Shown: piece by piece, positions 9,963 to 30,510 of the stretch
How the letters are laid out: each line of letters opens with the position of its first letter
Numbering within the stretch: the first letter of the stretch is position 1
Source of the DNA: an uncultured Bacteroidales bacterium
GTDB lineage: Bacteria > Bacteroidota > Bacteroidia > Bacteroidales > FEN-979
NCBI GenBank assembly: GCA_903828645.1
Contig: CAIKNA010000207.1
Span: 1-37,757 of the forward strand
Length of the DNA: 37,757 bases
Direction: 5' to 3'
The notes under the pieces: generated by a model
The model's database searches: none
Told to the model about the DNA's origin: nothing
Seen by the model: only the letters and a program-made list of their open reading frames with translations
Made by a program: the position numbers and the translations under genes

Positions 9963-10011
9963 TTTACGATTTACGATTTACGATTTACGATTTACGATTT
10001 TGGATTTAAGT
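9963..10011. repeat. TTTACGA heptad array (tolC-macA gap)
   Basis: Five perfect tandem copies of TTTACGA occupy 9963-9997, followed by the degenerate copies TTTTGGA (9998-10004) and TTTAAGT (10005-10011). The array begins at the base after the tolC stop codon and ends 23 bp before the macA start. The period is exactly 7 bp. Confidence 0.95.
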
Positions 10012-10034
10012 TAATTGATAACAAGGTTGAGATT

Positions 10035-11351
10035 ATGAAAAAGGCATATTGGATTATCATTGCGGTGGTGGTGGTCGCAGCGGCGGTTACGGTTTGGATG
10101 TTTGTCGGCAAGAAAAAGGCTGCGGCGGTCGAATACCGCACAGCCAAAATAGAAAAGGGCGACATCCAGGTCACGGTGAGGGCCAGCGGCACACTCAGCG
10201 CGGATACCACCGTCCAGGTGGGGACGCAGGTTTCGGGAATTATCAATAAAATCAATGTTGACTTCAACTCGGTTGTGAAAAAGGGGCAGGTCATTGCGAT
10301 CCTTGATACCACGTTCCTGGCCCAGGCTGTGGATGATGCAAGGGCTTCGCTCAAACGATCGGAGATACAGGTGAACCAGTCAAAGCGGGATTTCGACCGG
10401 ACGAAAATACTCTTTGATCAGAAGGTGCTGGCCCAGGCTGACTATGACCTGGCGCTTTCGACCTATGAAACGGCAGTGACCAATGCCTCTTCGGCACAGG
10501 CAGCGCTGAACCGTGCAAAGATCAACCTTCGTTATTCCACCATCATCGCCCCGATCTCAGGCGTTGTGGTTTCCAGGGCTGTGGATGTCGGGCAGACGGT
10601 GGCTGCAAGTTTCAGCACCCCTACGCTCTTCACCATTGCCAATGATCTGACCAAGATGCAGGTGCAGGCGAATATCGATGAAGGCGACATCGGGAAGATC
10701 AAGGTGGGGCTGGATGTGAAATTCACGGTAGATGCCTACCCCGAACTGACTTTTAACGGAACCGTGCGGCAGGTGCGGTTGCTGCCGGTGGTGACCCAGA
10801 ATGTGGTGAATTATACTGTCATCATTGATGTTCCTAATCCCGACCTGAAGTTGTTGCCCGGGATGACAGCAAACATCACCGTGCTGGTGCAGGAGGTGAA
10901 AGATATACTCAGGGTGCCATCTACCGCCCTTCGTTTTTCACCACCCCAGGAATATCTCGATGCGCTGGAAAAGAACCTTCCCGATTCGATTAAGAAAAAA
11001 CGCGCCATGTGGGCCTCAGGAGGCGGTCGATCCGGAGGTCCAGGCAGCAGTGCGGGCAGGAGCGGTACGGGTGGCATGCAGGGCAATTCAGGTGGCGGAG
11101 AAAACCGCAGGCGCAGCAACTTCGGCATGCTTTGGGTCAAGGTTGGCGATTCGCTCAAACCGCGCAGGGTTCATACCGGCCTAAGCGATGGGCTCAATAC
11201 CGAAATCACCGGGAAAATAAAGGAGGGGGAAGAAATAGTCCTGGGTTCAACTGCACCTCAGGGCACACAAACAGGGCAGCAGCAACAACAGAATCCTTTT
11301 GCACCGCAGATGCAAAGAGGCGGCCCTGGTGGCGGCAGGGGAGGACGATAA
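10035..11351 (+). CDS. MacA/HlyD-type periplasmic adaptor protein
   Basis: This 438-residue membrane-fusion protein links the inner-membrane ABC pump to TolC. It has an N-terminal membrane anchor (5-24), a split lipoyl/barrel-sandwich domain (about 58-95 and 170-205; VSGIINKINVDFNSVVKKGQ and IIAPISGVVVSRAVDVGQ) and an alpha-hairpin (about 98-165). A beta-barrel (205-290) and membrane-proximal domain complete it. It is unusual in having a glycine/serine/arginine-rich insert (328-360) inside the membrane-proximal domain and a Q-run plus Gly-rich tail (404-438); both are low-complexity and likely flexible. The ATPase gene starts 1 bp after its stop. Confidence 0.93.
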   Translation: MKKAYWIIIAVVVVAAAVTVWMFVGKKKAAAVEYRTAKIEKGDIQVTVRASGTLSADTTVQVGTQVSGIINKINVDFNSVVKKGQVIAILDTTFLAQAVDDARASLKRSEIQVNQSKRDFDRTKILFDQKVLAQADYDLALSTYETAVTNASSAQAALNRAKINLRYSTIIAPISGVVVSRAVDVGQTVAASFSTPTLFTIANDLTKMQVQANIDEGDIGKIKVGLDVKFTVDAYPELTFNGTVRQVRLLPVVTQNVVNYTVIIDVPNPDLKLLPGMTANITVLVQEVKDILRVPSTALRFSPPQEYLDALEKNLPDSIKKKRAMWASGGGRSGGPGSSAGRSGTGGMQGNSGGGENRRRSNFGMLWVKVGDSLKPRRVHTGLSDGLNTEITGKIKEGEEIVLGSTAPQGTQTGQQQQQNPFAPQMQRGGPGGGRGGR

Positions 11352-11352
11352 C

Positions 11353-12108
11353 ATGAACGAAACGATCATTTCAGTTAAAAGCCTGGTTAAGACTTACAAA
11401 ATGGGCGATGTAGAGGTTCACGCCCTGAGGGGAGTCAACCTCGACATCATGAAAGAGGATTTTGTAGCCATCATGGGTAAAAGCGGTTCCGGCAAGTCCA
11501 CCTTCATGAACATCCTCGGATGCCTTGATATTCCTACACGGGGAGAGTACCTGCTCGACGGGGTGGACGTGAGCAGCCTCAGCAAGGACCAGCTTGCCAA
11601 CCTGAGAAACCGTAAAATCGGGTTTGTTTTTCAGTCGTTCAACCTGTTATCCCGCACTTCCGCCCTCGAAAATGTTGAACTGCCATTGATGTACAACAAA
11701 AAGATCACCTCCAGGGAGATGCACGAGCGCTCGCTGAATGCACTCGAGGCTGTTGGACTTGCCGACCGTGCTCATCACTTTCCGAACCAGCTTTCGGGAG
11801 GTGAGCAGCAACGGGTAGCCATCGCGCGTTCACTTGTAAACGATCCCGTGGTGATCCTGGCCGATGAGCCAACCGGGAACCTTGACACCCGCACCAGCAT
11901 TGACGTGATGGGCATTTTCCAGAAACTGAACCAGAAGGGAATCACCATCGTGATTGTAACCCATGAGACCGACATTGCGGCTTTTACCAAACGAAATATC
12001 ACCTTTGGCGATGGCAAGATCATCAGGGCCGTTGTCGTGGATAAACCCAGGAATGCCACGGAAGAACTGGCGAACATGCCTTTAACGGCAGAGGAGGATG
12101 AGCTATGA
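11353..12108 (+). CDS. MacB-type ABC transporter ATP-binding protein
   Basis: This 251-residue ATPase belongs to the LolD/MacB/FtsE-type group. It has Walker [10 protein letters not shown] (42-50), Q-loop FVFQSFNLL (91-99), signature LSGGEQQR (147-154), Walker B VVILADEP (166-173), D-loop and switch His in VTHE. The start is set at 11353, where [15 protein letters not shown] gives the normal family N-terminus; an in-frame ATG 54 bp upstream lies inside macA and is rejected. Here ATPase and permease are separate polypeptides, unlike the fused E. coli MacB. Its stop overlaps the permease start (ATGA at 12105-12108), indicating translational coupling. Confidence 0.96.
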
Positions 12109-13325
12109 AGCTGAAAAATCTTTTGATGGCGGCATTGCGTTCGCTTGGTAAAAATAAAATGCGGACTTTTCTCACGATGCTTGGCATCATCATCGGGGTA
12201 GCCTCTGTGATCGCCATGCTTGCCATCGGCCAGGGATCGAAGCAGAGCATCCAGGCGCAGATCTCCACACTCGGGACCAACGTGCTGATGATTTTCCCGC
12301 AGGCAAGCACAACCGGAGGGGTAAGGATGGAAGCAGGGTCGTCGCAGAAAATGACCCTTGATGATGTGGCAGCCATCGTTGCCCGTTGTCCGTCGGTGGC
12401 CTACATCACGCCACAGGTGCGTACCAGCGGGCAACTGGTGGCAGGAACCATGAACTGGCGTACTTCGGTATACGGGGTCTATCCGAACTATTTTGACATT
12501 CGCAACCTGAAGCTTACAAGTGGTAACCTTTTCACCATGACCGACGACCGCAGCGCCACCAAGGTGTGTGTTGTCGGGCAAACCGTCGTGACAAACCTGT
12601 TTGGAGCCGGCGCCGACCCCGTTGGGAGCTATATCCGCATCAACAAAATTCCGTTCAAGATTATCGGGATCACCGAGAAAAAAGGGCAGAATGCCTTCGG
12701 GCAGGACCAGGATGACATGGTGATCGCCCCGTTTTCGACTGTCCAGAAAAGGATGCTGGCCATTACCTACATCCAGAACATGCTGGGGTCGGCATTAACG
12801 GAACCCCTGATCCCGGTTGCTTCGCAGGAGATCACCGATGTGCTTAAGGCCAAACACAACCTCGGCGTTTCAGAGGAAGCCGATTTTACCATCCGTACGC
12901 AGACGGATATTGCCGCTGCCGCAACCGCAACTTCCGGGATACTTACCATCCTGCTTGCCACCATTGCAAGCATCTCCCTGCTGGTAGGCGGTATCGGGAT
13001 CATGAACATCATGCTGGTTTCGGTGACGGAGCGCACCCGGGAGATCGGGATCCGCATGAGTGTAGGAGCCCGCGGCCGGGACGTGCTGCTTCAGTTCCTC
13101 ATCGAAGCGTTGCTGATCAGCCTGCTTGGCGGTTTCATCGGGGTGACACTCGGCGTGCTGGTATCACAACTGATCGCCAACATTCTCAGCTGGCCTGTAA
13201 CGATCACCATTCCCTCTATCCTCATGTCGTTCATCTTCTCTTCAGCCATCGGGATCTTTTTCGGCTGGTACCCGGCGAGGAAGGCTGCCGGGTTGAACCC
13301 GATAGATGCGCTACGGTACGAGTAG
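12105..13325 (+). CDS. MacB/FtsX-type ABC transporter permease
   Basis: This 406-residue permease has one N-terminal transmembrane helix (about 20-42), a periplasmic MacB_PCD domain (about 50-240) and three C-terminal helices forming the FtsX domain (about 270-400). The conserved cytoplasmic coupling loop [20 protein letters not shown] is present, as is the terminal block [17 protein letters not shown]. MacB-type proteins are mechanotransducers that move substrates in the periplasm to the TolC tunnel rather than across the inner membrane. Substrates are often peptides, lipopeptides or macrolides; here unknown. Its last 15 bp overlap the convergent tmk gene. Confidence 0.96.
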
Positions 13326-13937
13326 TGAAATTTCATGCCATATATCTGCAGCAATTGTTTCCGGTGAACGGTTTCCGTCTGTGATAAAAATTTTCTCCGA
13401 CAGTTTCAGTTTTTCCATCGCTTCAAAATATTTCTCACGCACCTTTAACTGGTTTTCCATGTTCTCAAAAAGTTCCAGCGAACTTCTTCCCCTGGTAAGC
13501 CGCGCCATGCTGATCTCCGGCAAAATATCGATGTAAATGTTCATGTCGGGGCGAAGCAGGTCTGCACTTAAGGCATTTGCCCCGATCACCCAGTCGAGCG
13601 ACATGTGTGCGCCATGATAGGCGTAGGAGGAAAAATAATACCGGTCGGTGATAACAGTATACCCTTCCTCCAGTTTTTTCAGGATTCCATTGGTCTTGCC
13701 CAGCAGATGATCAAGCCGGTCTGCAACAAAAAGTCCGGCAATGGTCCGGTGGTCTGCTTCGGTTTTGTGGGTGAAAATGTCCCTGATAATTGATCCGATC
13801 ACGCTGTTGGTAGGCTCCACCGTGGTATAGACCCGGTGACCTGCTTTAACCAGGTTTTCGGACAGCAATTTTACCTGCGTGCTTTTTCCGCTGCCGTCAA
13901 TGCCTTCAAAGGCGATAAACAGATTTTTTTTCGTCAT
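13311..13937 (-). CDS. tmk: Thymidylate kinase
   Basis: The 208-residue enzyme phosphorylates dTMP to dTDP with ATP, an essential step in DNA precursor synthesis. P-loop FEGIDGSGKSTQ lies at 10-21, the dTMP-binding block VEPTNS at 40-45, TDRYYFSSYAYHGA (97-110) carries the DRY/H-type motif, and a LID region with ARLTRGRSSLELFE follows. Length and motif spacing are normal. The gene is convergent with the macB permease and the two 3' ends overlap by 15 bp, leaving no room for a terminator between them. Confidence 0.96.
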   Translation of the reverse strand: MTKKNLFIAFEGIDGSGKSTQVKLLSENLVKAGHRVYTTVEPTNSVIGSIIRDIFTHKTEADHRTIAGLFVADRLDHLLGKTNGILKKLEEGYTVITDRYYFSSYAYHGAHMSLDWVIGANALSADLLRPDMNIYIDILPEISMARLTRGRSSLELFENMENQLKVREKYFEAMEKLKLSEKIFITDGNRSPETIAADIWHEISLLVP

Positions 13938-13993
13938 AATTTTCTCCTTTCCGGCAGGAAATCGGGCTGAAACCGGGCTCCTTTTTTATTAAA

Positions 13994-14001
13994 CAAAAAT
14001 A
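13994..14001 (-). promoter_or_regulatory. -7 box of tmk
   Basis: On the minus strand the site reads TATTTTTG, a match to TAnnTTTG, 56 bp upstream of the tmk ATG. No -33 TTTG at the standard spacing. Confidence 0.45.
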
Positions 14002-14291
14002 GGATTAATTGTTAAGAATCTGAGTTAATCCTCATCCTTGGTTGACGTTCCATTGCATAAGGTTGATTTGCAAAGGTTTCCCGGAGTCGGGAAACCGGTA
14101 AAGGATAACTGTTAACCGGTTATTCCTGCAAAGATCAGGCAACTATGTTGCCAATATGAAAAATTTGCAGGAACAAATGATTAAGAAAATGCAGGGTTTG
14201 TATAAGGAAGTGATGAAAACCTTTCATTATTCCTGCACAACCAACCACATATATTTTTAATATCCTGATGGTTGCTTCTTTTCGCCAGCCC
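14002..14291. other. Intergenic region with a perfect 9-bp stem-loop
   Basis: GGTTTCCCG (14075-14083), a GAGT loop and CGGGAAACC (14088-14096) form a perfect hairpin; on the minus strand it is followed by TTTG only, so it is at best a weak terminator for the small gene at 14292-14705. TGCAGGAA/TTCCTGCA occurs three times in alternating orientation (near 14123, 14166 and 14230). A 34-codon frame (14156-14260, +) begins MKNLQEQMIKKMQG but has no supporting evidence. Nothing else is recognised. Confidence 0.5.
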
Positions 14292-14705
14292 CTAATTATA
14301 ATTTACCAAAATGGTATATGGGCTCGCTGCAAGGTAGGTACCATGTCCGACAACCTCTTTGAACAAAACGTTTAACCGGATATTGGTAATGGCAATGGAT
14401 GCGGATGTCTTTTGCACGACATCCAGTTTATAACAGACTTCGTTTTCCCCGTTTTTCCCGGTCAGGGAAAGCGGCAATCCGGCAATACTCAGGTCAAAAC
14501 AACTATAAATCCCGCTCGACAGCATAAATAGGGTGCCGTCTTCAGAAGTTAATGACAGCCTCGCCATGTTGTCAGGCAAGACGATGGAAGTACTTGCACT
14601 TGCCGATGAGCTTTGCTGTGCGACCATTGGAATGGCCAAAAAAATCAACCAGAACAGGACTATTAATGAACGAATGCAGATCACTTTTTTCTCTTTTGAA
14701 TGCAT
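14292..14705 (-). CDS. Small secreted protein of unknown function
   Basis: The 137-residue product starts with a signal peptide (hydrophobic core IRSLIVLFWLIFLAIPM, then VAQQ). The mature part (about 110 residues) begins with a Ser/Ala run and is predicted all-beta by its alternating pattern, with two cysteines (FDL-preceding C and VCYKL) that could form a disulphide. The ending GTYLAASPYTILVNYN recalls the terminal strand of the small DUF4402-type beta proteins of Bacteroidota, but this is a weak resemblance. It is monocistronic, with intergenic DNA on both sides. Confidence 0.5.
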   Translation of the reverse strand: MHSKEKKVICIRSLIVLFWLIFLAIPMVAQQSSSASASTSIVLPDNMARLSLTSEDGTLFMLSSGIYSCFDLSIAGLPLSLTGKNGENEVCYKLDVVQKTSASIAITNIRLNVLFKEVVGHGTYLAASPYTILVNYN

Positions 14706-14910
14706 GAGCCCGGAGCAATAAAACGAATCCGGCCTAAACCAGGTCCGATGCCGTTAAACCCTGTATGAAAAAATCAGGCCAAAAAAATGACCGAAGCTAA
14801 TAATCAGATTATCAAAATATTAATCTTGACAGATCAAAGTTGGGTGTCTGTAATCCGGAGATAATTCTCATTATTGGAAAACAGAGCGGCAGCAATCCAC
14901 ATCACTGATT

Positions 14911-14982
14911 CTTCCATTCCAGCATTCCGGCATTCCAGCATTCCTGCATTGTTGCATTGTTGCATTGTTGCATTGTTGCATT
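14911..14982. repeat. Octad array NNNGCATT upstream of the nuo promoter
   Basis: Nine tandem 8-mers: CTTCCATT, CCAGCATT, CCGGCATT, CCAGCATT, CCTGCATT and four perfect GTTGCATT. The left half is diverged and the right half homogeneous, suggesting recent expansion at one end. The array ends 38 bp before the -7 box at 15021, so unit-number changes would alter what lies upstream of the nuo promoter. The remainder of the gap 14706-15047 shows no other feature. Confidence 0.95.
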
Positions 14983-15020
14983 TCTTTGTGAAGATTATAA
15001 CGGTATTTGAAAATTTTATC

Positions 15021-15028
15021 TATCTTTG
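15021..15028 (+). promoter_or_regulatory. -7 box of the nuo operon
   Basis: TATCTTTG matches TAnnTTTG and ends 19 bp before the nuoA ATG. No TTTG is present exactly 19-21 nt upstream; TTTG occurs at 14985-14988 and 15006-15009. It is the only good box in the 342-bp gap, so it is the likely main promoter for the 13-kb operon. Confidence 0.55.
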
Positions 15029-15047
15029 TCAAGAATAATTCTAAATA

Positions 15048-15437
15048 ATGGACACGGCTTTTTTCCCTTCAGACTACGTTCCTGTGCTGGTTCAGTCGGT
15101 GGTAGCATTTGGTTTTGTGGCGGCGACAATGTTTGCAACGCATTACATTGGCGGAAAACGCAAAAAGTTTCATACGATCCGCAAGGACCAGAATTTTGAA
15201 TGTGGCATCGAAGTGAAAGGAAATGCGCGCTTCCCTTTCTCCGTAAAATATTTTTTAATCGCCATCCTTTTCGTGCTGTTTGATGTCGAAATCATTTTTT
15301 TCTACCCATGGGCCATTAATTTCAAGGAGTTTGGCTGGGATGGATTTTGGGAAATGCTCCTGTTCCTGGGATTTTTACTATTCGGATTCTGGTACATCAT
15401 AAAGAAAGGGGCATTGAATTGGGAAGACCAGAAATAA
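15048..15437 (+). CDS. nuoA: NADH-quinone oxidoreductase subunit A
   Basis: The 129-residue membrane subunit has three transmembrane helices (about 10-32, 65-88 and 98-118). The loop [21 protein letters not shown] carries the conserved cysteine near the quinone cavity, and [16 protein letters not shown] is the acidic second helix. NuoA sits with NuoH, J and K at the junction between the hydrophilic arm and the proton-pumping arm. It is the first gene of a complete nuoA-N operon; nuoB follows after 5 bp. Confidence 0.96.
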
Positions 15438-15442
15438 GTCAC

Positions 15443-16000: not shown

Positions 16001-16053
16001 CAAGTTCAAAATGTAAATTCAAAATTCAAAATGCAGAGTCAAAATTCAAAATA
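16001..16053. repeat. CAAAATG/CAAAGT heptad array (nuoB-nuoC gap)
   Basis: The gap between the nuoB stop and the nuoC start is filled by units CAAGTT, CAAAATG, TAAATT, CAAAATT, CAAAATG, CAGAGT, CAAAATT, CAAAATA. Seven-bp units alternate with 6-bp units, the same pattern as in the other nuo gaps, here more diverged. Confidence 0.9.
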
Positions 16054-16057
16054 AATA

Positions 16058-17714: not shown

Positions 17715-17716
17715 AA

Positions 17717-17756
17717 AAAATGCAAAATGCAAAATGCAAAGTCAAAATGCAAAATA
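17717..17756. repeat. CAAAATG/CAAAGT heptad array containing the nuoE start
   Basis: Units AAAATG, CAAAATG, CAAAATG, CAAAGT, CAAAATG, CAAAATA run from 2 bp after the nuoD stop into the 5' end of nuoE. Four units end in ATG; because the period is 7, these ATGs fall in different frames. Two of them (17720 and 17747) are in frame with nuoE. Confidence 0.95.
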
Positions 17757-18328
17757 ATGTAATCAGTCACCCGCAGTTTACAAGGGAAGGTAAAAAAGTT
17801 GCCTTTACCCCTGAAGTGCTGGAAAAGGTGCATTGCCTGATGGAGAGGTATCCCGAAGGCCGGCAAAAATCGGCTTTATTGCCGGTTTTGCATATTGCGC
17901 AGGAGGAACTGGGTGGCTATCTTTCGGTTGACATCATGGATTATGTGGCGTCATTGCTTGACATCCAGCCGATCGAGGTGTATGAGGTGGCCACATTTTA
18001 TTCAATGTTTTATCTTGGCAAAATGGGAACATATGTGATAGAAGTCTGCCGTACCGGCCCTTGCGCCATTTCGGGAGGCGAACAGATACTGGCGCACCTT
18101 CAGGATGTCCTGGAGATCAAACCGGGGGAAACCACACCCGACGGGATCTTTACCCTCAAAGAGGTGGAATGTCTCGGTTCGTGCGGAACCGGACCTGTGA
18201 TGCAGGTCAACACCGAATATTACGAAAAGCTGACTCCCGGCAAGGTGGATAAGCTGCTTGAAGACCTGAAAGAGTATGCCGATAGAAACAAACCTGGCGA
18301 ATCGACATGGATGGAAAAATTCTGCTAG
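17720..18328 (+). CDS. nuoE: NADH-quinone oxidoreductase subunit E
   Basis: The 24-kDa-family subunit of the NADH-dehydrogenase module has a thioredoxin-like fold holding [2Fe-2S] cluster N1a through C110, C115, C151 and C155 (VCRTGPC and ECLGSC). Two starts are possible, Met1 at 17720 (202 residues) and Met10 at 17747 (193 residues). Both lie inside a heptad repeat, and no ATG, GTG or TTG occurs between Met10 and the conserved block VAFTPEVLEKV. So the start codon and at least the first three to twelve residues (MQNAKCKVKMQN) derive from the repeat. nuoF overlaps by 22 bp. Confidence 0.95.
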   Translation: MQNAKCKVKMQNNVISHPQFTREGKKVAFTPEVLEKVHCLMERYPEGRQKSALLPVLHIAQEELGGYLSVDIMDYVASLLDIQPIEVYEVATFYSMFYLGKMGTYVIEVCRTGPCAISGGEQILAHLQDVLEIKPGETTPDGIFTLKEVECLGSCGTGPVMQVNTEYYEKLTPGKVDKLLEDLKEYADRNKPGESTWMEKFC

Positions 18329-19638
18329 CAAACATTGACATTCCGGGCATCCGGGGATTCGACGTTTACCGCACACACGGTGGTTATGCTGCCGTTGAAA
18401 AAGCATTGCGGCACCTGTCGGTTCAGGAAGTAATTGCGGAAGTTAACCGTTCGGGGTTGCGGGGCAGGGGAGGTGCAGGTTTTCCGACGGGACTCAAGTG
18501 GAGTTTTCTCGACCGGAAAACGGATAAGCCACGTTATCTTGTCTGCAATGCCGATGAAAGCGAGCCTGGAACATTCAAGGACCGTTATCTGATGCACCAT
18601 CTGCCTCACCTGCTCATCGAAGGACTCATCATTTCCAGCTATGCGCTTGGTGTAAATACCTGTTACATATACATTCGCGGAGAATTCAAATACATGGTAG
18701 GCATTCTCGAAAATGCCATCCGGGAGGCCCGGCAACATGGTTTCCTCGGGGAGCGCATCTTAGGAACCGATTTCTCCCTGGAGATTTATGTACATCCGGG
18801 AGCCGGCGCCTACATCTGCGGTGAGGAGACTGCCCTGCTCGAATCGCTGGAGGGCAAACGCGGCAATCCGCGCATCAAACCGCCATTCCCTGCCTTCAAG
18901 GGGTTGTACGGTTGTCCGACTGTCGTCAACAACGTGGAAACACTGGCCACTGTCGGCCCGATCATCAGCATGGGCGGGGAAGCCTATTCGAAGATCGGGC
19001 GGGGTAAGAGTACCGGAACCAAATTGATCTCGGCCTGCGGGAACATAAACAAGCCCGGTGTTTACGAAATTGAGATGGGACTTCCTGTGGAGGATTTTAT
19101 CTATTCCCCCGGTTACTGCGGGGGAATTTCCGGGAATAAATATTTAAAAGCGGTGATTCCCGGGGGATCTTCGGTTCCTATTCTCCCGGCAGACCTGATT
19201 TTGAATACGGCCCGGGGAGAAAAGCGGCTGATGACCTACGAATCGCTCGCCGACGGAGACTTTGAAACCGGCACCATGCTTGGCTCGGGGGGATTCATCG
19301 TGTATGACGAAGATGCCTGCATTGTGCGAAACACCTGGAACCTGACCCGTTTTTACCACCACGAATCATGCGGTCAGTGTTCCCCTTGCCGCGAAGGTAC
19401 CGGCTGGATGGAGAAGATTTTATACAGGATAGAACACGGGCAGGGCAAAATGTCTGACATCGACCTGCTGGTCAGGGTGGCGAAAAACATTGAAGGCCAT
19501 ACGATTTGCCCGCTGGGCGATGCTGCAGCCTGGCCAGTGGCCAGTGCCATCAGACATTTCAGAAAGGAGTTTGAAGATCATGTGCTTCACCCGGCAGAAG
19601 TTTTGTCGAAGGAACGCAGCCTGTTGAAAGTATTTTGA
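18307..19638 (+). CDS. nuoF: NADH-quinone oxidoreductase subunit F
   Basis: The 443-residue 51-kDa-family subunit oxidises NADH and carries FMN and [4Fe-4S] cluster N3. GLRGRGGAGFPTG (50-62) binds NADH/FMN, and GAGAYICGEETALLESLEG (165-183) is the FMN/NADH site. N3 ligands are C355, C358, C361 (ESCGQCSPCREG) and C401 (HTICPLGD). Its presence with NuoE and NuoG means this complex I takes electrons from NADH, unlike the ferredoxin-type 11-subunit forms. The start overlaps nuoE by 22 bp; its stop codon is overlapped by the first unit of a GAATAYC array. Confidence 0.97.
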   Translation: MDGKILLANIDIPGIRGFDVYRTHGGYAAVEKALRHLSVQEVIAEVNRSGLRGRGGAGFPTGLKWSFLDRKTDKPRYLVCNADESEPGTFKDRYLMHHLPHLLIEGLIISSYALGVNTCYIYIRGEFKYMVGILENAIREARQHGFLGERILGTDFSLEIYVHPGAGAYICGEETALLESLEGKRGNPRIKPPFPAFKGLYGCPTVVNNVETLATVGPIISMGGEAYSKIGRGKSTGTKLISACGNINKPGVYEIEMGLPVEDFIYSPGYCGGISGNKYLKAVIPGGSSVPILPADLILNTARGEKRLMTYESLADGDFETGTMLGSGGFIVYDEDACIVRNTWNLTRFYHHESCGQCSPCREGTGWMEKILYRIEHGQGKMSDIDLLVRVAKNIEGHTICPLGDAAAWPVASAIRHFRKEFEDHVLHPAEVLSKERSLLKVF

Positions 19639-19705
19639 ATATCGAATACCGAATACCGAATATCGAATAATGAATTTCGAATTTTTGTGACCTGCATTTT
19701 GCATT
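19637..19705. repeat. GAATAYC heptad array plus TGCATTT units (nuoF-nuoG gap)
   Basis: Seven consecutive 7-mers (GAATATC, GAATACC, GAATACC, GAATATC, GAATAAT, GAATTTC, GAATTTT) run from 19637 to 19685; the first begins inside the nuoF stop TGA (19636-19638). TGCATTTTGCATT at 19693-19705 belongs to the CAAAATG family in the opposite orientation. Confidence 0.9.
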
Positions 19706-21733: not shown

Positions 21734-21739
21734 AAAAAA

Positions 21740-21838
21740 TTTAAAATGCAAAATGCAAAGTCAAATATCAAATTTGATGGTCGCTGGAGTGGTCCTTGTT
21801 CTTTGCATTTTGACTTTGCATTTCGCATTTTGAATTGT
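21740..21838. repeat. Inverted pair of CAAAATG arrays forming a hairpin (nuoH-nuoI gap)
   Basis: The left arm 21740-21765 and right arm 21809-21834 are reverse complements at 24 of 26 positions; both arms are built from CAAAATG and CAAAGT units. The loop is about 43 nt. The hairpin fills the gap and ends 9 bp before the nuoI ATG. It could mark an mRNA processing or stabilising site within the operon. Confidence 0.9.
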
Positions 21839-21843: not shown

Positions 21844-22419
21844 ATGAAGAGCCTTACCAACAGATCCAAGGTGGTTTCCAACAAACAGATGACATTCTGG
21901 GAGAGGATCTATTTTCCTGCCATTCTGAATGGAATGCGCATTACCTTTGGCCACTTGTTCCGGAGAAAGGCAACGGTACAATACCCGGAAGCAACCCGTG
22001 AATTTTCAGATATCTATCGTGGGAAACATGTGTTGAAGCGGGATGATGAAGGTCGTGAACGCTGCACCTCCTGCGGGCTCTGTGCGGTAGCCTGCCCGGC
22101 CGAGGCGATCACCATGGTGTCGGCCGAGCGTAAACCCGGCGAAGAACACCTCTACCGGGAGGAGAAATATGCCGCGGTTTACGAGATCAACATGCTGCGA
22201 TGCATTTTCTGCGGCGATTGCGAAGAAGCCTGCCCGAAGGAGGCCATCTTCCTGACGAAGGAACTTGTAAAGTCGGAGTATCAGCGCGAAAAATTCATCT
22301 ATGGCAAAGATGAGTTGGTCGAATCGCCAGATCCTGCAAAACGGGTGGATGTTTCAAAGCGGCAAACAAAGGAAGTGCTTGAATTCAAGAAAGATAAAAG
22401 ATATAAACACAATAAATAA
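21844..22419 (+). CDS. nuoI: NADH-quinone oxidoreductase subunit I
   Basis: The 191-residue subunit has two ferredoxin-type [4Fe-4S] clusters, N6a and N6b, that pass electrons from NuoG to NuoB. Cysteines are C74, C77, C80 and C84 in CTSCGLCAVACPAEAI, and C120, C123, C126 and C130 in CIFCGDCEEACPKEAI; in each motif the fourth Cys serves the other cluster. An amphipathic N-terminal helix (about 18-45) rests on NuoH. The C-terminus is a lysine-rich tail ending DKRYKHNK. Confidence 0.97.
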   Translation: MKSLTNRSKVVSNKQMTFWERIYFPAILNGMRITFGHLFRRKATVQYPEATREFSDIYRGKHVLKRDDEGRERCTSCGLCAVACPAEAITMVSAERKPGEEHLYREEKYAAVYEINMLRCIFCGDCEEACPKEAIFLTKELVKSEYQREKFIYGKDELVESPDPAKRVDVSKRQTKEVLEFKKDKRYKHNK

Positions 22420-22523
22420 GTCAAAGTGCAGATTGTAAAATCAAAATGCAAAAAGTTCCGTGATTCGCTATCGATTCACCCTGTTTTGACCTTTGACTTT
22501 GCTCTTTGCATTTTGCATTTTTA
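22420..22523. repeat. Inverted CAAAATG-family arrays (nuoI-nuoJ gap)
   Basis: Forward units (GTCAAAGTGCA and CAAAATGCAAAA, 22420-22454) face reverse units (TTTGACCTTTGACTTTGC and TTTGCATTTTGCATTTTT, 22486-22522). AAAATGCAAAA pairs with TTTTGCATTTT; the rest of the arms pair imperfectly. The arrays occupy nearly the whole 108-bp gap. Confidence 0.85.
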
Positions 22524-23028: not shown

Positions 23029-23033
23029 AGGAA

Positions 23034-23054
23034 TATTCAATATTCGGTATTCAA
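23034..23054. repeat. TATTCRR heptads, GAATAYC family inverted (nuoJ-nuoK gap)
   Basis: TATTCAA, TATTCGG and TATTCAA are tandem 7-mers and the reverse complement of the GAATAYC family found after nuoF. The array fills half of the 40-bp gap. Confidence 0.8.
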
Positions 23055-23068
23055 TAAACATTTGTTCA

Positions 23069-23408: not shown

Positions 23409-23497
23409 TGCAAAGTCAAAGTGCAAAATTATCGATCTGGCTGACGAAGCACAAAATAGTTGCATTTTGACTTTGCAATCTGCATTTTGCATTTATT
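23409..23497. repeat. Inverted CAAAATG-family arrays forming a hairpin (nuoK-nuoL gap)
   Basis: The left arm 23409-23426 and the right arm 23460-23477 pair over 18 positions with one G-T (G-U in RNA) wobble. More reverse units (TGCATTTTGCATTTATTT) follow to 23497. The loop is about 33 nt. The array occupies most of the 126-bp gap. Confidence 0.9.
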
Positions 23498-25417: not shown

Positions 25418-25420
25418 CCG

Positions 25421-26869
25421 ATGCTGACCGTAATTCTCATATTGTTTCCGCTTGCGCTCTCGCTGATCCTCCTTGCGATCAGGCAGGAAAAAGCCATCCG
25501 ACAATTTGCCCTGGCAGGTTCGCTGATCGAATTTGGTGTTGCCGTGGCAGCCTTTATCCAATATAAAACCTCGTGCCATTGTAACCTTCTTTTTTCGGCC
25601 GACTGGCTTGCAACCCTTGGAGTGAGCCTCAGGTTTGGCATGGATGGCATCAGCCTGCTGATGGTGATGCTGACCACCTTCCTGGTTCCGGTCATCATTC
25701 TCTCCTCCTTCAACCATGCCTATGAGAGGCCGTCTGCCTTTTACAGTTTGATTCTCCTGATGGAAATGGCCCTGGTCGGCGTATTCGTCGCGTTCGACGG
25801 GTTGATTTTCTACATCTTCTGGGAACTGGCCCTGATCCCGGCCTACTTCATCTGCGCGGTATGGGGCGGCAACGACCGCATCCGGATCACTTTTAAGTTC
25901 TTCATCTTCACTTTCGTGGGAAGTCTCTTCATGCTCGTAGCCCTGATTTATCTCTATTTCAGGACCCCTTTTCCACACTCCTTTGATTTTCAGTCGCTCT
26001 ATTCGGCCACTCTCACCCCGGTAGAACAAGCATGGATATTTGCAGCGTTTTTCCTGGCATTTGCCATCAAAATCCCGATTTTCCCGCTCCACACCTGGCA
26101 GCCAGACACATACACCGTTGCACCTGCCGCAGGGAGCATGCTGCTTGCCGGGATCATGCTGAAGATGGGCATCTACGGGATGATCCGCTGGATGATCCCC
26201 ATCTGCCACCAGGCGGTACAGCAGTTTGCCCCGGTGGTGATTATCCTCTCCATCACCGGGATCATATATGCCTCAGTCATTGCTATCCGCCAAAGCGACA
26301 TGAAAAGACTGGTAGCCTATTCCTCCATTGCCCACGTGGGGCTCATTGCCGCCGGCGTATTTGCCCTCACACCCTGGGCCATGGAGGGTGCCGTGATTCA
26401 AATGGTATCTCACGGAATTAACATCGTGGGTCTCTTTATCGTGATCGATCTCATCGAACAACGCACGGGGAGCCGCACCATCGGCGAACTGGGCGGCATC
26501 GCCCTGAAAGCGCCAAGGCTCGCTGCCGTGTTCATGATCATCCTGCTTGGAAGCATTGCACTGCCGCTCACCAATGGATTTACGGGCGAATTCCTGCTGC
26601 TGCTCGGATTGTTTGAATATTCCAAAATTTTTGCCGCCATTGCCGGTGTTACCATCATTTTCAGCGCGGTATACATGCTGTGGATGTACCAGCGCACCAT
26701 GCTCGGAAAAACAAGTGAAGCCACTGAAAAGATATCAGACCTGAGCCTGGCCGAAACTGTCATTTTCATTCCCCTTGTCATCATGATCTTCTGGATCGGG
26801 ATTTTCCCGGGTCTTTTCCTGGATATTGCCTTGCCGGATGTGATGCAGATACTGAATTTTATAAAATAA
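25421..26869 (+). CDS. nuoM: NADH-quinone oxidoreductase subunit M
   Basis: The 482-residue second antiporter-like subunit (MrpD-type) has about 14 helices. E135 (YIFWELALIPAYF) and K217 (AFAIKIPIFPLHTWQPDTY) are the conserved intramembrane charges, followed by APAAGSMLLAGIMLKMG. The start is 3 bp from nuoL, implying translational coupling. Confidence 0.97.
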   Translation: MLTVILILFPLALSLILLAIRQEKAIRQFALAGSLIEFGVAVAAFIQYKTSCHCNLLFSADWLATLGVSLRFGMDGISLLMVMLTTFLVPVIILSSFNHAYERPSAFYSLILLMEMALVGVFVAFDGLIFYIFWELALIPAYFICAVWGGNDRIRITFKFFIFTFVGSLFMLVALIYLYFRTPFPHSFDFQSLYSATLTPVEQAWIFAAFFLAFAIKIPIFPLHTWQPDTYTVAPAAGSMLLAGIMLKMGIYGMIRWMIPICHQAVQQFAPVVIILSITGIIYASVIAIRQSDMKRLVAYSSIAHVGLIAAGVFALTPWAMEGAVIQMVSHGINIVGLFIVIDLIEQRTGSRTIGELGGIALKAPRLAAVFMIILLGSIALPLTNGFTGEFLLLLGLFEYSKIFAAIAGVTIIFSAVYMLWMYQRTMLGKTSEATEKISDLSLAETVIFIPLVIMIFWIGIFPGLFLDIALPDVMQILNFIK

Positions 26870-26873
26870 GGCA

Positions 26874-26904
26874 CAATGCAAAATGCAAATTCAAATATCA
26901 AAAA
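26874..26904. repeat. CAAAATG-family heptads (nuoM-nuoN gap)
   Basis: Units CAATG, CAAAATG, CAAATT, CAAATAT and CAAAAAG start 5 bp after the nuoM stop and end 22 bp before the nuoN ATG. Confidence 0.85.
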
Positions 26905-26926
26905 GCTGTAATCCTTACTTTTTTCA

Positions 26927-28303
26927 ATGACTACAATCATTTCATTAACCATCCTCGGCATATTCGTTCTCTTCCTGGGAATCATGAAGAAGCAATCATG
27001 GCTGCTGCCGGTAATCCTCCTGGGGCTGGTGGTCTCCATGGTGCTCACCATGAGGGACTGGAATACAGTGAGTCACTATTATCATGACATGATCATCGTA
27101 GACAATGTGTCGGTTGCCTTCAGCACAGTATTGATTTTCTCTGCCTTCCTTATCTTTTCGCTGGCGGCGCATTATTACCGGGGTGTTCAGCGGCCGCTTG
27201 ACGACATTTACGGGGTAATGATCTTTGCCCTGACCGGGGCCGTGATGATGACCTCCTACGGCAATCTCATCATGCTTTTCCTGGGGATTGAAACACTCTC
27301 CATTGCCCTTTACGTGTTGGCTGGCAGTCACAAGGAGGCGATCACTTCCAATGAAGCGACGCTTAAGTATTTCCTGCTAGGGTCCTTTCTTTCAGGGTTC
27401 CTGCTTTTCGGGATCGCCCTGATTTATGGTTCCAGTGGCTCGTTCGACCTGGAGCGTATCTCCGTTTATGTAGCCACTTGTGCAGGCAACTATCCACCTA
27501 TGTTCCTGGCCGGGCTTTTCCTGCTTATCATCGGGCTTGCCTTTAAAATTGCCATCGTACCATTCCATTTCTGGGCCCCCGATGTTTACGAGGGAACCCC
27601 AACCCTGCTTACAGCCTTCATGGCTACCGTGGTGAAGACTGCCTCCATTATTGCGATGTTCCGGTTTTTTTCACACACTTTTCATGGCATTCATGGCGTC
27701 TGGGAAACGACAATCTGGGTCATGGCGGCATTCACCATCCTGCTGGGAAACCTCACAGGGGTTTACCAGCCCAACCTCAAGAGAATGCTGGCTTATTCGA
27801 GCATCAGCCATTCCGGCTACATGCTGCTGGCAGTGGTGGCATTCAGCGCCATGTCGAACAGCGCCCTGCTGCTTTATACCCTCTCATATTCCATCGCCAC
27901 CATCTCGGCATTCGGGATACTGATCCTCATCAGGGAAGCCCATGGAAATGACTATTTCAGTTCACTGAACGGGCTGGGAAAGACCAACCCGCTGGAGGCT
28001 TTCTGCCTCACCATCGCCATGCTTTCGCTTGCAGGGATCCCTCCCCTGGCAGGCTTCATGGCAAAATATTACCTCTTTACCACAGCCCTGGAAAAAGGGT
28101 TGGTTTGGCTGGTGATTGTGGCCGTTGCAGGTTCAGCCATCAGCGTGGCCTACTATTTCAAACCCATCATCGCGATGTACCTGAAAAACTCAAACGGAGT
28201 GACACTCAGGGTGGAGACACCCTACAAGGTGCACCTGCTTTTTATGACAATGCTGGTCATCCTCATCGGGCTCATGCCATTCCTGCTGATCGGGTTGCTA
28301 TAA
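26927..28303 (+). CDS. nuoN: NADH-quinone oxidoreductase subunit N
   Basis: The 458-residue third antiporter-like subunit has about 14 helices. The acidic residue in FLGIETLSIALYVL and the lysine in GLAFKIAIVPFHFWAPDVYEG match the proton-path Glu and Lys of NuoN; YSSISHSGYMLL is also conserved. It completes the 14-subunit set A-N in the standard order with no missing subunit. A K+ channel gene begins 9 bp after its stop. Confidence 0.97.
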   Translation: MTTIISLTILGIFVLFLGIMKKQSWLLPVILLGLVVSMVLTMRDWNTVSHYYHDMIIVDNVSVAFSTVLIFSAFLIFSLAAHYYRGVQRPLDDIYGVMIFALTGAVMMTSYGNLIMLFLGIETLSIALYVLAGSHKEAITSNEATLKYFLLGSFLSGFLLFGIALIYGSSGSFDLERISVYVATCAGNYPPMFLAGLFLLIIGLAFKIAIVPFHFWAPDVYEGTPTLLTAFMATVVKTASIIAMFRFFSHTFHGIHGVWETTIWVMAAFTILLGNLTGVYQPNLKRMLAYSSISHSGYMLLAVVAFSAMSNSALLLYTLSYSIATISAFGILILIREAHGNDYFSSLNGLGKTNPLEAFCLTIAMLSLAGIPPLAGFMAKYYLFTTALEKGLVWLVIVAVAGSAISVAYYFKPIIAMYLKNSNGVTLRVETPYKVHLLFMTMLVILIGLMPFLLIGLL

Positions 28304-28312
28304 AGGATCAAA

Positions 28313-29155
28313 ATGAACTTTCGTTTTAAAACCCGCGAAGTAATCCTATTCATCCTGATATCACTGTGTGTTTACATGGTGCTCATCTTTGGCTTCGCCT
28401 GGATATATTATTTCACGAACAGCATTGAAATGACTCCCTATGCCACGCCATACAACCACCCGGGCCCGGCATCGGGTTCAGATAAAATCAATTTTGAAAA
28501 GGCAGTATATTTCAGCATCGTATCGTTTCATACCATTGGTTTTGGCGACATACACCCGGTTACGCAGGTCGGCCGGCAGATCGTCATGATCCAGTCGGCC
28601 ATTTCGATGTTTTTCACCTCGATTTTTTCAGGATTCCTGGTCTATTTCGTGATCAAACGCCCCCAGGATGTTTTTACCACGAAAAAGGTTTACATCCGTT
28701 TCCGGAAAGACCACTACTTTTTATCCCTGCGGCTCGGGAACAAAGGCCGCGATATCATTGATCTGAAAAGCAAGTTTGAAGCCTGGACCATTGAGAACAA
28801 CACGCGGATCAGGGTTTTCCGGATAGAGGAGGAGTTGCCCGATCTTGAAAAGATTCTCTATTATGACCTAAGCCTGGACGATCCGGCCAATCACACCCTC
28901 AGGGCCGCCATCGCCGATGCGCTCGTCAATGGAACACTGCTTCATATGAAGTTTTCGTTCATCGGCAACGACATCAAAACCGGGGAACAGGTGGCCTACG
29001 CGAAATATTACGATTCACGCCATCTCAGTTTCGGCAAGATGTTCCTCAATGTCTACTCATGGGATCCTAACGGAAGAAGGAAGAACTTCAAATGGGCCAA
29101 TTTTGAACGGATTGAACCGATGGATAAGTTGAGAATGGATGGTTTCTTTGCCTGA
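28313..29155 (+). CDS. Inward-rectifier-like (KirBac-type) potassium channel
   Basis: The 280-residue protein has an outer helix (about 9-34), a pore helix and selectivity filter TIGFGD (74-79), an inner helix (about 86-114) and a soluble C-terminal half. The C-terminal half resembles the immunoglobulin-like cytoplasmic domain of KirBac channels: YFLSLRLGNKGRDII, then GTLLHMKFSFIGNDIKTGEQ with VAYAKYYDS, and finally KNFKWANFERIEP. The tetramer would let K+ flow across the inner membrane. Filter Phe replaces the usual Tyr, as in some two-pore and other K+ channels. Its start 9 bp after nuoN suggests co-transcription with complex I, where it could offset charge moved by proton pumping; this role is an inference. 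A 12-bp palindrome AACTAATTAGTT (29159-29170) follows the stop. Confidence 0.87.
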   Translation: MNFRFKTREVILFILISLCVYMVLIFGFAWIYYFTNSIEMTPYATPYNHPGPASGSDKINFEKAVYFSIVSFHTIGFGDIHPVTQVGRQIVMIQSAISMFFTSIFSGFLVYFVIKRPQDVFTTKKVYIRFRKDHYFLSLRLGNKGRDIIDLKSKFEAWTIENNTRIRVFRIEEELPDLEKILYYDLSLDDPANHTLRAAIADALVNGTLLHMKFSFIGNDIKTGEQVAYAKYYDSRHLSFGKMFLNVYSWDPNGRRKNFKWANFERIEPMDKLRMDGFFA

Positions 29156-29193
29156 GTAAACTAATTAGTTCTCAAGTCCCCGCATCCTCAAAT

Positions 29194-30156
29194 TCAAAAC
29201 CGTTTCACGTACCCGTGGCAATAGGGCGCCGTGCCTTTGTGATCATAATAGTCCTGATGATAATCCTCGGCCTTCCAGAAGGTTTTGGCAGGGATTACTT
29301 CGGTTACGACCTTGAATCCATTTGCTTTCAACCGGGCGATGAGTTTTTGGGCAATCTCTTTCTGCGCTTCATCCCGGTAAAAAACGGCCGACCTGTATTG
29401 TTCACCCCAATCCGGACCCTGGTGGTTCCATTCTGTGGGATCGTGGGTTTCAAAAAACATTTTCGCCACCTCTTCGTAGGAGGTCTGTCCGGGATTAAAA
29501 ACCACCTCAATAGCCTCATAATGGCCTGTATTGCCGGCGCAAACCTCCTTGTAAGTCGGATGGTCCTTTTTCCCCCCGGTGTACCCGACTTCGGTCGAAA
29601 CAACTCCCTTGATCTTTTTCATGTAATATTCGACCCCCCAGAAGCAACCTCCGGCAAAGATGGCCGTGTCGGTTGCGGCGGATTTCACGGCCGCGGCCGC
29701 CGGAATAAATTCCAGTGAAAGGGAGTTGACGCAGTGACGGGTGTCTTTCGGGGTTAGTTCCTCCCCGAGGAAAACATGGCCAAGGTGTGCGCCGCACTTT
29801 GCACACTCAATCTCGGTGCGCATGCCATCGGCATCAGGGATCCGTTTGACAGCCCCCTTGATTTCATCATCAAAGGCGGGCCATCCGCAACGGGCATCAA
29901 ATTTATCCGATGACCGGTAGAGCGGCGCACCGCATCTTTTACATACATAGGTTCCGTTCTCACTGAAGTTGTCATATTTGCCCGTGAAAGGAGCTTCCGT
30001 TCCTTTATGGACGATCACCCGGGTCTCTTCGGGAGTCAATTGCTTGAAATTCATAGACTGTTGAGTTTTTTCGACAGGTTGATTTTGATTCTGCGTACAT
30101 CCGGCAATCGCCAGGAGCGAAAATACGAGGATAAAGATACTGTTTTTTACCGGCAT
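29194..30156 (-). CDS. MsrB-MsrA fusion methionine sulphoxide reductase, lipoprotein
   Basis: The 320-residue enzyme repairs oxidised methionine. It starts with a lipoprotein signal (hydrophobic stretch and lipobox LAIAGC, Cys20), so it is anchored in the cell envelope. The N-terminal MsrB domain (about 36-150) has Zn ligands C72/C75 and C118/C121 and catalytic C142 (RHCVNSLSLEF); it reduces Met-R-oxide. The C-terminal MsrA domain (about 163-315) has catalytic C171 (AGGCFWGVEYY) and reduces Met-S-oxide. The order is B-A, the reverse of the A-B order in PilB-type fusions. It is convergent with the K+ channel gene. No canonical promoter is visible upstream. Confidence 0.94.
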   Translation of the reverse strand: MPVKNSIFILVFSLLAIAGCTQNQNQPVEKTQQSMNFKQLTPEETRVIVHKGTEAPFTGKYDNFSENGTYVCKRCGAPLYRSSDKFDARCGWPAFDDEIKGAVKRIPDADGMRTEIECAKCGAHLGHVFLGEELTPKDTRHCVNSLSLEFIPAAAAVKSAATDTAIFAGGCFWGVEYYMKKIKGVVSTEVGYTGGKKDHPTYKEVCAGNTGHYEAIEVVFNPGQTSYEEVAKMFFETHDPTEWNHQGPDWGEQYRSAVFYRDEAQKEIAQKLIARLKANGFKVVTEVIPAKTFWKAEDYHQDYYDHKGTAPYCHGYVKRF

Positions 30157-30223
30157 ATTGTTGTAATTTAGACTTAATAAATACGACGGAAAGGGGGATT
30201 TATTACATGGGGGTGGAAAAATC

Positions 30224-30314
30224 GTGACGGGGGACGGGTGACACGTGACGGGGGACGGATGACACGTGACTGGGGACGGGTGACACGTGAAGGGTGATGG
30301 GTGAGTCGAGATGG
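30224..30314. repeat. GTGACGG heptad array with 21-bp higher-order unit
   Basis: Thirteen uninterrupted 7-mers occupy 91 bp. The first nine form three copies of the 21-bp triplet GTGACGG-GGGACGG-GTGACAC (with single changes), and the last four (GTGAAGG, GTGATGG, GTGAGTC, GAGATGG) are diverged. It lies in the 368-bp gap between divergent msrBA and the adenosine kinase gene, 38 bp upstream of the -33 element of the latter. Confidence 0.95.
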
Positions 30315-30351
30315 GTGTATGTTGATCAATTTTCGGGACGCACTGGTTCTG

Positions 30352-30382
30352 TTTGTCCGCCAGAAATTAAATTGTAATTTTG
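30352..30382 (+). promoter_or_regulatory. Promoter of the adenosine kinase-like gene
   Basis: TTTG (30352-30355), a 19-nt spacer and TAATTTTG (30375-30382) match the full Bacteroidota TTTG/TAnnTTTG promoter. Transcription would start near 30388, leaving a leader of about 135 nt that consists largely of the TTTGCATTTTGAC repeat array. Confidence 0.65.
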
Positions 30383-30430
30383 CACGCTGGATTCCAGTCC
30401 CCTAAAAGTTCCGGTTTCCGGAAACATTTT

Positions 30431-30510
30431 TTTTGCAATTTGACTTTGCATTTTGCATTTTGACTTCTCTTTTTGCATTTTGACTTTGCATTTTGCAATT
30501 TGACTTTTTC
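30431..30510. repeat. CAAAATG-family array, reverse orientation, in the kinase leader
   Basis: Units TTTTGCAATTTGACTT, TGCATTTTGCATTTTGACTT, TTTTGCATTTTGACTT and TGCATTTTGCAATTTGACTT occur as two blocks separated by CTCT. It is the same family as in the nuo gaps (reverse complement of CAAAGTCAAAATG), here all in one orientation, giving a very U-rich 5' leader. Confidence 0.92.

Follow-up and report, generated by a model that had tools for sequence, protein, structure and literature searches.

What makes a set of short tandem arrays share a unit of about 7 bp but not a sequence? The question is raised by contig CAIKNA010000207.1 of an uncultured Bacteroidales bacterium, whose whole stretch of 37,757 nt, called the window below, carries several families of such arrays between its genes. 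The sequence-only reading of the window had taken them for the products of a common generating mechanism rather than the sites of a common binding protein. We compared the genome of the window (G000, the own genome) with its relatives and found that arrays of this kind stand in inverted orientation on both sides of small genes of the family PF05635 (23S_rRNA_IVP, "intervening-sequence protein", IVP). We propose that the arrays are dispersed copies or remnants of the arms of such IVP elements, mostly without an open reading frame (ORF), and that gene and arrays form a system working like REPIN-RAYT, in which doublets of repetitive extragenic palindromes (REP) go with a REP-associated tyrosine transposase. 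We put the probability of this proposal at about 0.6.

IVP genes between inverted tandem arrays

PF05635 was found in 22 of 25 genomes (own and relatives) and in 0 of 14 control genomes; class-wide, 79 of 99 sampled genomes including the own one carry it, with up to 23 matches per genome. For each locus, an arm score compared the left flank (450 bp) with the reverse complement of the right flank, and pairs of flanks from different loci served as the null. This flank test was used instead of a first inverted-pair scan, which kept only 10 pairs owing to its periodicity filter and greedy choice. It turned out that 22 of the best 30 IVP loci in the first set and 21 of 30 in the class-wide set scored above the 95th percentile of the cross pairs; above the 99th percentile, which is inflated by near-identical orthologous pairs, there were none (0 of 30 in either set, and 0 of 26 GxxExxY loci, described below). 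For the 40 loci of the second set, with 39 of 1,560 cross pairs left out of the null as homologous, the median score was 28.5 versus 10.0 for cross pairs, and 36 and 26 loci exceeded the 95% and 99% levels. The third set of 40 contained 37 loci with two usable flanks, 26 of them above 13.5, a threshold defined as the maximum of 45 control ORFs of the own genome. Pooled, 108 of 137 IVP loci exceed this threshold versus 0 of the 45 controls, so that complementary ends flanking an ORF, a feature of intervening sequences (IVSs) in 23S rRNA, are present here as well. The inverted score beats the direct one in 123 of the 137 loci, which include orthologs of each other and are not all independent.

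Generally, the arms match within an element and differ between elements. Among 104 arms with a callable period it was 7 in 46, 14 in 18, 8 in 28, 9 in 6 and another value in 6, i.e. near 7 and not strictly 7. Private variants common to both arms occur even among orthologs in the nuoJ-nuoK gap, such as GAACACT units in L149 only and GATCAACGAA in L148 and L153. A junction motif, GTTRATAACTT, was tried as a general mark of the elements and rejected, since it occurs in only 16 of the 110 IVP loci of relatives, in none of the 30 class-wide loci, in 2 of 26 GxxExxY loci and in none of the 45 controls.

The window itself has no PF05635 gene, and the cognate elements lie elsewhere in the own genome, which has five matches. 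The arms of L235 are (ATTTACG)n and those of L236 are CAAAATG/CAAAGT, so the TTTACGA and CAAAATG families of the window are arms of resident IVP elements. L238, a partial match, has 9-bp AATGCAGGC arms; L237 has weak arms and L195 none. L194, L195 and L196 represent an arm-less IVP type of 142-147 aa, possibly a domesticated form.

The recQ locus and genome dialects

One IVP locus, standing before recQ, is orthologous across the genus (L235 in the own genome; L272, L348, L345, L268, L273, L267 and L358). Its left neighbour is 94-96% identical to that of L235 and recQ 77-89%, while the IVP proteins (54-69%; L358 not compared) are less conserved than both neighbours. The recQ-IVP matches a solved chain, 2rld (E 5e-15; five chains in the entry), and has been retained by 9 of the 15 genomes of the genus in which both neighbours were read. 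Its arms are TTTACGA in G000, G018 and G011, TTTACGA with ACGATAT in G012 and G006, TGACAAR in G002, G013 and G014, and TGACCAA/TTACCAA in G007. The recQ gap lacks an IVP in G005, G010 and G009 (21-30 bp), in G017 (141 bp, no array) and in G016 (34 bp with a solo TGACAAR stretch); at recQ, G001 lacks an IVP match and has a different gene as left neighbour. The locus is incomplete in G015, and G003 and G004 gave no ortholog.

In the tree of the nine recQ-IVPs, the TTTACGA proteins are set apart from the TGACNAR ones (99/97, in all 200 bootstrap trees), and the split keeps 73/95 and 98% with two distant outgroups, whereas the five-gene species tree requires 4 changes for the same arm labels. A group of G000, G018, G012, G002 and G013, all of which fall inside a species-tree group of support 100/96, is rejected for the recQ-IVP (approximately unbiased test, p-AU 7.7e-5), as are G012 with G013 (0.014) and G018 with G002 (0.0007); these groups were picked after the trees were seen, and the two species trees differ in places. 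Either the element was replaced together with its arms, or protein and unit co-adapt.

To describe the repeats of whole genomes, we counted three-copy patterns across 19 genomes of the genus; the reversed patterns, counted as controls, gave 0 every time. Hits overlap inside arrays and are not array counts. ACGATTT has 330 hits in G000, 145 in G006, 131 in G012, 56 in G011, 54 in G018, 53 in G008 and 52 in G003, with 0-4 in the other 12, and across the rest of the phylum it is rare, with 1-3 hits in each of 9 genomes out of 197. GACAART is found in G014 (162), G018 (112), G008 (64), G000 (36), G002 (29), G013 (10) and G003 (5), with 0-1 in the others, and GACGART in G007 (97), G003 (49), G014 (49), G011 (29), G008 (20), G013 (17), G018 (3) and G000 (2), again with 0-1 elsewhere. 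GACGARG is nearly private to G015 (185; G012 1, others 0), whose IVP L247 has a GGACGAR arm.

These dialects largely go with the resident gene. TTTACGA hits number 54-330 in the five genomes with TTTACGA arms versus 0-53 in the 11 others scored (exact p 2.3e-4), a separation with a narrow margin set by G008 (53); the counts for G006, G011 and G018 were obtained before their IVP arms were seen. Totals over the three families are 28-368 in the nine genomes with recQ-IVP and 0, 0, 0, 0, 3, 4 and 137 in the seven without (p 0.003); outside the scored set are G003 (106), G004 (0) and G015 (1, with 185 of its own unit). The p values of these associations do not remove relatedness. The association of arrays with IVP is fairly strong, but only three phylogenetically independent contrasts are available for it. 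Since related species in which the matching gene is absent are mostly devoid of the matching repeats as well, a selfish gene with no assigned function may seed repeats genome-wide.

The gap between the tolC-like and hlyD-like genes, which the TTTACGA array of the window fills, shows the dialects at an orthologous site. A heptamer-type array stands at the tolC stop or within about 25 bp of it in 10 of 18 orthologs, own included, with TTTACGA, TTACGAR, TGACGAR, TGACAAR, GGACGAR or a CGGGAC form as unit; five orthologs have no array, and the repeats of G001, G002 and G016 are weak or of another kind. At this gap the ACGA-type heptamers grade into each other, and they can no longer be called unrelated sequences as in the sequence-only reading. 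In seven genomes the unit is closer to the recQ-IVP arm of the respective genome than to the arms of others (permutation p 0.022), G011 and G007 being imperfect fits. By eye, filled and empty gaps at tolC-hlyD and recQ are too diverged to call a target-site duplication, a trait of miniature inverted-repeat transposable elements.

The slots themselves can hold another gene. GxxExxY genes (PF13366) have inverted arms of another style (CRCAGAG-like), and 11 of 26 lie above the 95th percentile. The inverted arms that these genes often have (flanks of L205-L234), of CRCAGAG or CACGAAG style, form a second class of array arms, of which the own genome also has an ORF-less hairpin (L132, 8311-8447). 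In G008 the recQ slot (L393) is occupied by a GxxExxY gene with a PF13366 match and a junction similar to the IVP one, and in the nuoJ-nuoK gap of G012 (L148) a GxxExxY ORF lies inside outer arms like those around IVP; it looks as if IVP and GxxExxY were exchangeable cargo of one slot.

This exchange bears on whether IVP genes are only passengers of arrays that are copied by an enzyme acting in trans, such as a REP-type HUH transposase or a reverse transcriptase, or by host recombination. Such a view would fit the GxxExxY genes in the same slot, often with matching inverted arms (13 of 26 above 16.5), the many own-genome arrays (most of them) with no IVP between arms, and G008, which retains arrays without recQ-IVP. 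However, the arm unit tracks the IVP protein lineage and not the species tree, and arrays of the scored families are near zero in G016 and G017, both without recQ-IVP. We consider passenger IVPs rather unlikely, though the most probable of the alternatives.

The arrays of the window and the nuo gaps

The own genome is a 5.1-Mb draft of 409 contigs, and the closest named match of the window in the collection searched is KR_bin-2728, an uncultured Bacteroidales metagenome-assembled genome (NuoF 83%). The array neighbours in the window are an efflux cluster (tolC-like and hlyD-like genes) and the nuoA-N operon. Tandem Repeats Finder recovered the four 7-bp families named by the sequence-only reading (TTTACGA, CAAAATG, GAATAYC and GTGACGG) and its fifth, 8-bp family, all at the positions given there. 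The arrays are as follows, with the program's own call in brackets:

9962..10008, + strand: solo (TTTACGA)n array filling the tolC-like/hlyD-like gap, of the family of the own-genome recQ-IVP with arms L235, G000:C80 (ATTTACG, 9962-10008)
14915..14982, unstranded: 8-bp arrays GCATTCCA / TGCATTGT upstream of nuoA (8-bp unit, CATTCCAG/TGCATTGT, 14915-14982)
16005..16052, + strand: CAAAATG/CAAATTC-type array filling the nuoB-nuoC gap (CAAAATG type, 16005-16052)
17717..17755, + strand: CAAAATG array directly 3' of the nuoD stop; the longest nuoE ORF begins within it, at 17720 (CAAAATG type, 17717-17755)
19637..19682, + strand: GAATAYC array, 5'-type arm, in the nuoF-nuoG gap (GAATATC, 19637-19682)
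21738..21836, + strand: inverted CAAAATG arm pair with a unique loop in the nuoH-nuoI gap, RNA hairpin of -38.6 kcal/mol, z -6.45 (CAAAATG type, 21743-21759)
22418..22520, + strand: inverted CAAAATG arm pair with a different loop in the nuoI-nuoJ gap, z -4.51 (CAAAATG type, 22505-22521)
23029..23068, unstranded: remnant 3'-type arm AATATTC in the nuoJ-nuoK gap, where relatives have a whole IVP element with the matching arm family (AATATTC, 23032-23056)
23409..23494, + strand: inverted CAAAATG-type arm pair in the nuoK-nuoL gap, z -4.09 (CAAAATG type, 23460-23494)
26871..26889, + strand: short CAAAATG array in the nuoM-nuoN gap (CAAAATG type, 26871-26889)
30223..30304, unstranded: GTGACGG/GGGACGG array with a higher-order period of 21 bp, lying between an msrA/B-like and a pfkB-like gene; the IVP elements L179 and L201 of relatives have arms of this family (GTGACGG, 30223-30304)
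30430..30507, - strand: CAAAATG/CAAAGT array with 7+7+6 bp periods upstream of the pfkB-like gene (CAAAATG type, 30430-30507)

Three of the CAAAATG arrays are thus inverted pairs, each folding into a hairpin, a feature absent from the sequence-only reading. Scanning gaps by minimum free energy proved unspecific, as 198 gaps gave 137 hairpins, and the scan was kept only for the coordinates of these three. The 8-bp (GCATT) arrays upstream of nuoA loosely resemble the arms of about 9 bp, AATGCARRC, of the IVP elements L238, L251 and L255, a weak link. The true nuoE start probably lies downstream, because similarity to KR_bin-2728 begins only at residue 23 (window 17720-17760). The own genome also contains repeats that differ from the heptamer arrays, namely, in L037 (4222-4449 and 6158-6353), 48-bp tandem repeats and a long-stemmed inverted pair of 28/31-bp repeats.

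The period and position of the arrays were measured in the window and in 20 further stretches of the own genome, of which 8 had been picked for CAAAATG arrays, with ORFs crudely called at 100 aa or more. Non-coding DNA (21.8 kb) has 29 lag-7 runs and 12 at lag 14, with 5 or fewer at each of the other lags from 2 to 13, and one dinucleotide shuffle of it gave 0 lag-7 runs; ORF-called DNA, about eleven times as long (234.7 kb), has 11 (shuffle 1). Of the arrays of period 5-12 in the window and the stretches not chosen by pattern (344 kb), the 7-bp unit accounts for 18 of 22 in non-coding DNA but for 2 of 9 in ORFs; its share of non-coding arrays in four relatives, sampled at about 100 kb apiece, is 4 of 6, 5 of 7, 5 of 5 and 2 of 7. 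Neither an even spread of unit lengths over 5-12 bp nor an equal frequency in coding sequence was seen in the own genome. The dominance of 7 bp therefore holds, while a strict period does not, given the 6-bp CAAAGT, the 8- and 9-bp families and the 20- and 21-bp composites; likewise the arrays keep to the gaps by these counts, and some of them reach into ORF ends (nuoE, 17720), so the word "only" has to go.

Plain replication slippage would explain such a picture if polymerases slipped by heptamers and arrays arose and drifted independently in each gap, staying out of genes since 7 is not a multiple of 3. The arrays do lie mostly in gaps, their units grade stepwise at one orthologous gap, and heptanucleotides dominate long simple repeats in many bacteria according to the portion of PMC4679880 consulted, which cites Mrazek 2007. 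Yet one heptamer stands at many unlinked places of a genome and is rare or absent in its sisters, with reversed-pattern controls at 0, and an IVP gene has one and the same unit, inverted, in the arrays on its two sides. Slippage is not the sole cause because it lengthens arrays but cannot carry a unit to other loci, and as the whole explanation it is improbable. The earlier idea of a common generating mechanism thus survives as a shared mechanism without one binding sequence; a pure generator such as slippage is incomplete, because unit families go with the IVP genes that carry them as arms and genomes have dialects.

The nuo gaps, compared in 20 related genomes and KR_bin-2728, contain other arrays, hairpins, insertions or nothing in the relatives. 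By eye, inverted CAAAATG-type pairs with differing loops are found in gaps of G001, G002, G013, G016, G017 and G018, and not always in one and the same nuo gap. The nuoJ-nuoK gap was read in 20 genomes, own included (G008 was not readable). Where the own genome has a 40-bp AATATTC remnant, G001, G011, G014, G018 and G019 have a full-length IVP ORF between inverted GAATATT-type arrays, 61-82% identical to that of G001; the IVP is broken into two frames in G017 and cut short in G015 and G006. GAATATT-type arms also enclose a broken GxxExxY ORF (G012) or a 403-bp insertion without IVP match (G002). Short remnants are left in G004 and G013, G016 has another array, and no GAATATT-type arms were found in this gap of G005, G007, G009, G010, G020 and G022. 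The ORFs of the gap belong to PF05635 and PF13366, and of the IVPs, G001 and G014 are above the Pfam cut-off and G011 below. GAATAYC is the arm family of the nuoJ-nuoK IVP element, which survives in the own genome only as a remnant. KR_bin-2728 has inverted GAATATT-type arrays, read by eye, in its nuoF-nuoG gap.

Several gaps hold something else again. In the nuoH-nuoI gap, the hairpin site of the window, L150, L154 and L155 have insertions of about 1 kb, and those of L150 and L155 encode an ORF resembling, by eye, a secreted lectin-type protein with a tail like that of the type IX secretion system. KR_bin-2728 (L041, 8155-8191 and 9396-9432) has 8-bp GAAATAGC arrays in the nuoC-D and nuoD-E gaps, the latter at the position of the window's CAAAATG array. 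In G015 (L158), a GAACCTT heptamer array, a further family at an orthologous site, occupies the nuoI-nuoJ gap where other genomes have CAAAATG pairs.

Arrays that fill operon gaps and fold strongly could be regulatory or mRNA-structural elements, selected as attenuators, stabilisers or translation enhancers with the repeat form a by-product, and translational roles were suggested by MacGregor for TAACTGA repeats, as an excerpt of PMC4679880 relates. However, both array orientations occur, and no gap needs arrays, because in relatives these gaps carry other families or are free of arrays. We consider this the least probable of the alternatives, with very little chance of being right. We also rejected the arrays as brackets around host-gene cargo: own-genome TTTACGA arrays flank ordinary genes (a decarboxylase, a mechanosensitive channel). 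The gap and not the bracketed gene was taken as the unit, because the relatives' gaps and the IVP loci pointed there.

An IVP-array system among known repeats

Several observations weigh against the proposed IVP-array system. Below the arm threshold are 29 of 137 IVP loci, including the array-less type of 142-147 aa (L194-L196), and among the 85 arrays of the own genome just 11 have an inverted partner within 220 bp, among its 16 TTTACGA arrays just 1. Only 2 of 7 non-coding arrays in G018 have period 7. The TGACAAR association is weak alone (ranks 1, 5 and 6 of 16, p 0.041), and the contrast of IVP presence is not significant on the tree, the 3 supported independent contrasts being concordant or tied (sign test p 0.25). 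G008, with 137 hits, has GxxExxY and not IVP in its recQ slot, and G003 has 106 hits with no recQ locus found. In G018 the TGACAAR hits (112) exceed those of its own arm unit TTTACGA (54); G007 has TGACCAA/TTACCAA arms and TGACGAR as counted unit, and G011 a TGACGAA array at tolC-hlyD and TTTACGA arms. In favour of the system, the ratio dN/dS of nonsynonymous to synonymous substitutions in recQ-IVP came out at 0.07-0.24 for the 18 pairs, out of 28, whose dS is finite; but dS is saturated in 10 of the 28 pairs and high in the rest, and the ratio is taken only as a sign of purifying selection. Besides, IVP is not known to have an enzyme of mobility.

According to a section of PMC4990558, S23p/IVP is a homopentamer, the stems of IVSs are cut by RNase III, and the genes are described as without known function; in Coxiella, 2-3 heptamers in tandem, varying between strains, lie close to the 5' end of the IVS. 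In our proposal, an IVP element consists of a small PF05635 gene (four-helix bundle) and, on either side of it, tandem arrays of 7-9 bp units in mutually inverted orientation. The unit is peculiar to each IVP lineage, and a resident long-kept IVP, here beside recQ, would support the spread and homogenisation of this unit across intergenic gaps. The protein may act on the arrays, binding them paired or single-stranded and helping to copy them via a hairpin RNA or single-stranded DNA intermediate, while slippage would alter copy number. Copying in trans would homogenise the arrays into genome dialects, and paired arms may leave the expression of an operon unharmed, in the way that trimming by RNase III does in the case of rRNA IVSs. 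A period of 7 bp would be partly inherited, as slippage shifts whole units, and perhaps comes partly from spacing on a multimeric IVP. A more specific form, in which a ring-shaped IVP binds RNA or DNA, recognises arrays by their period and a slowly changing unit, copies its own arm unit genome-wide and homogenises it, so that protein and dialect co-evolve, is a possibility that we entertain tentatively and with some doubt.

Of the known systems, REPIN-RAYT comes closest in its logic. As parts of PMC3116915 and PMC8049555 describe it, it shares with the arrays here a vertically kept single-copy gene enclosed by short inverted repeats, numerous extragenic copies scattered as solo remnants or as pairs with diverse loops, higher copy numbers in the presence of the gene, and a repeat type that follows the gene. 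Here too a long-kept gene at one locus is flanked by its own repeat (recQ-IVP). In contrast, the flanked gene is a PF05635 IVP and not a HUH (Y1) transposase like RAYT, and the repeats are tandem 7-9 bp units varying by species, whereas REP is a fixed palindrome, mostly in inverted doublets. With the 23S rRNA IVS the elements share the PF05635 gene and an ORF between complementary ends; they differ in lying in gaps of protein genes (identified neighbours nuoJ-nuoK and recQ, not 23S rRNA) and in having long tandem-array arms with related arrays dispersed genome-wide. A link to diversity-generating retroelements is the likeness of IVP to their protein Avd, a presumed homologue (PMC10053308, in part).

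The likeness in form to heptanucleotide repeats also stands. The cyanobacterial short tandemly repeated repetitive (STRR) sequences were likened by form alone, and the nearest named relative of the window is Bacteroidales. Intergenic 7-bp tandem arrays restricted to lineages, some Bacteroidetes included, are known as long simple sequence repeats (LSSRs), STRRs or TAACTGA arrays, and the last are recorded in five Bacteroidetes (PMC4679880, in an excerpt citing Mrazek 2007), so that the statement that a Bacteroidota counterpart is not characterised was too strong for the arrays themselves. The excerpt reports no gene family with them, whereas the arrays here are tied to IVP elements and genome dialects. 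Among the matches listed from open-licence literature (few subscription papers, no preprints), none reported tandem-array arms on IVP genes, and a string search with five array sequences listed plant and aphid papers by title.

In conclusion, the origin of heptamer repeats and the function of IVP are tied together here, and both gain a testable cause, in that the resident IVP predicts the repeat of its genome. Orthologous sites offer natural experiments: G016 and G017 lack the IVP, G014 has switched its unit, and G015 differs in both unit and IVP. The ring-shaped form of the proposal, if true, would provide a function for the IVP family and, for bacteria, a way of dispersing DNA that is new and could operate in most genomes of the class. 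Because IVP genes occur in 79 of the 99 sampled class genomes, an IVP-array system, if real, shapes the intergenic DNA of a large group.

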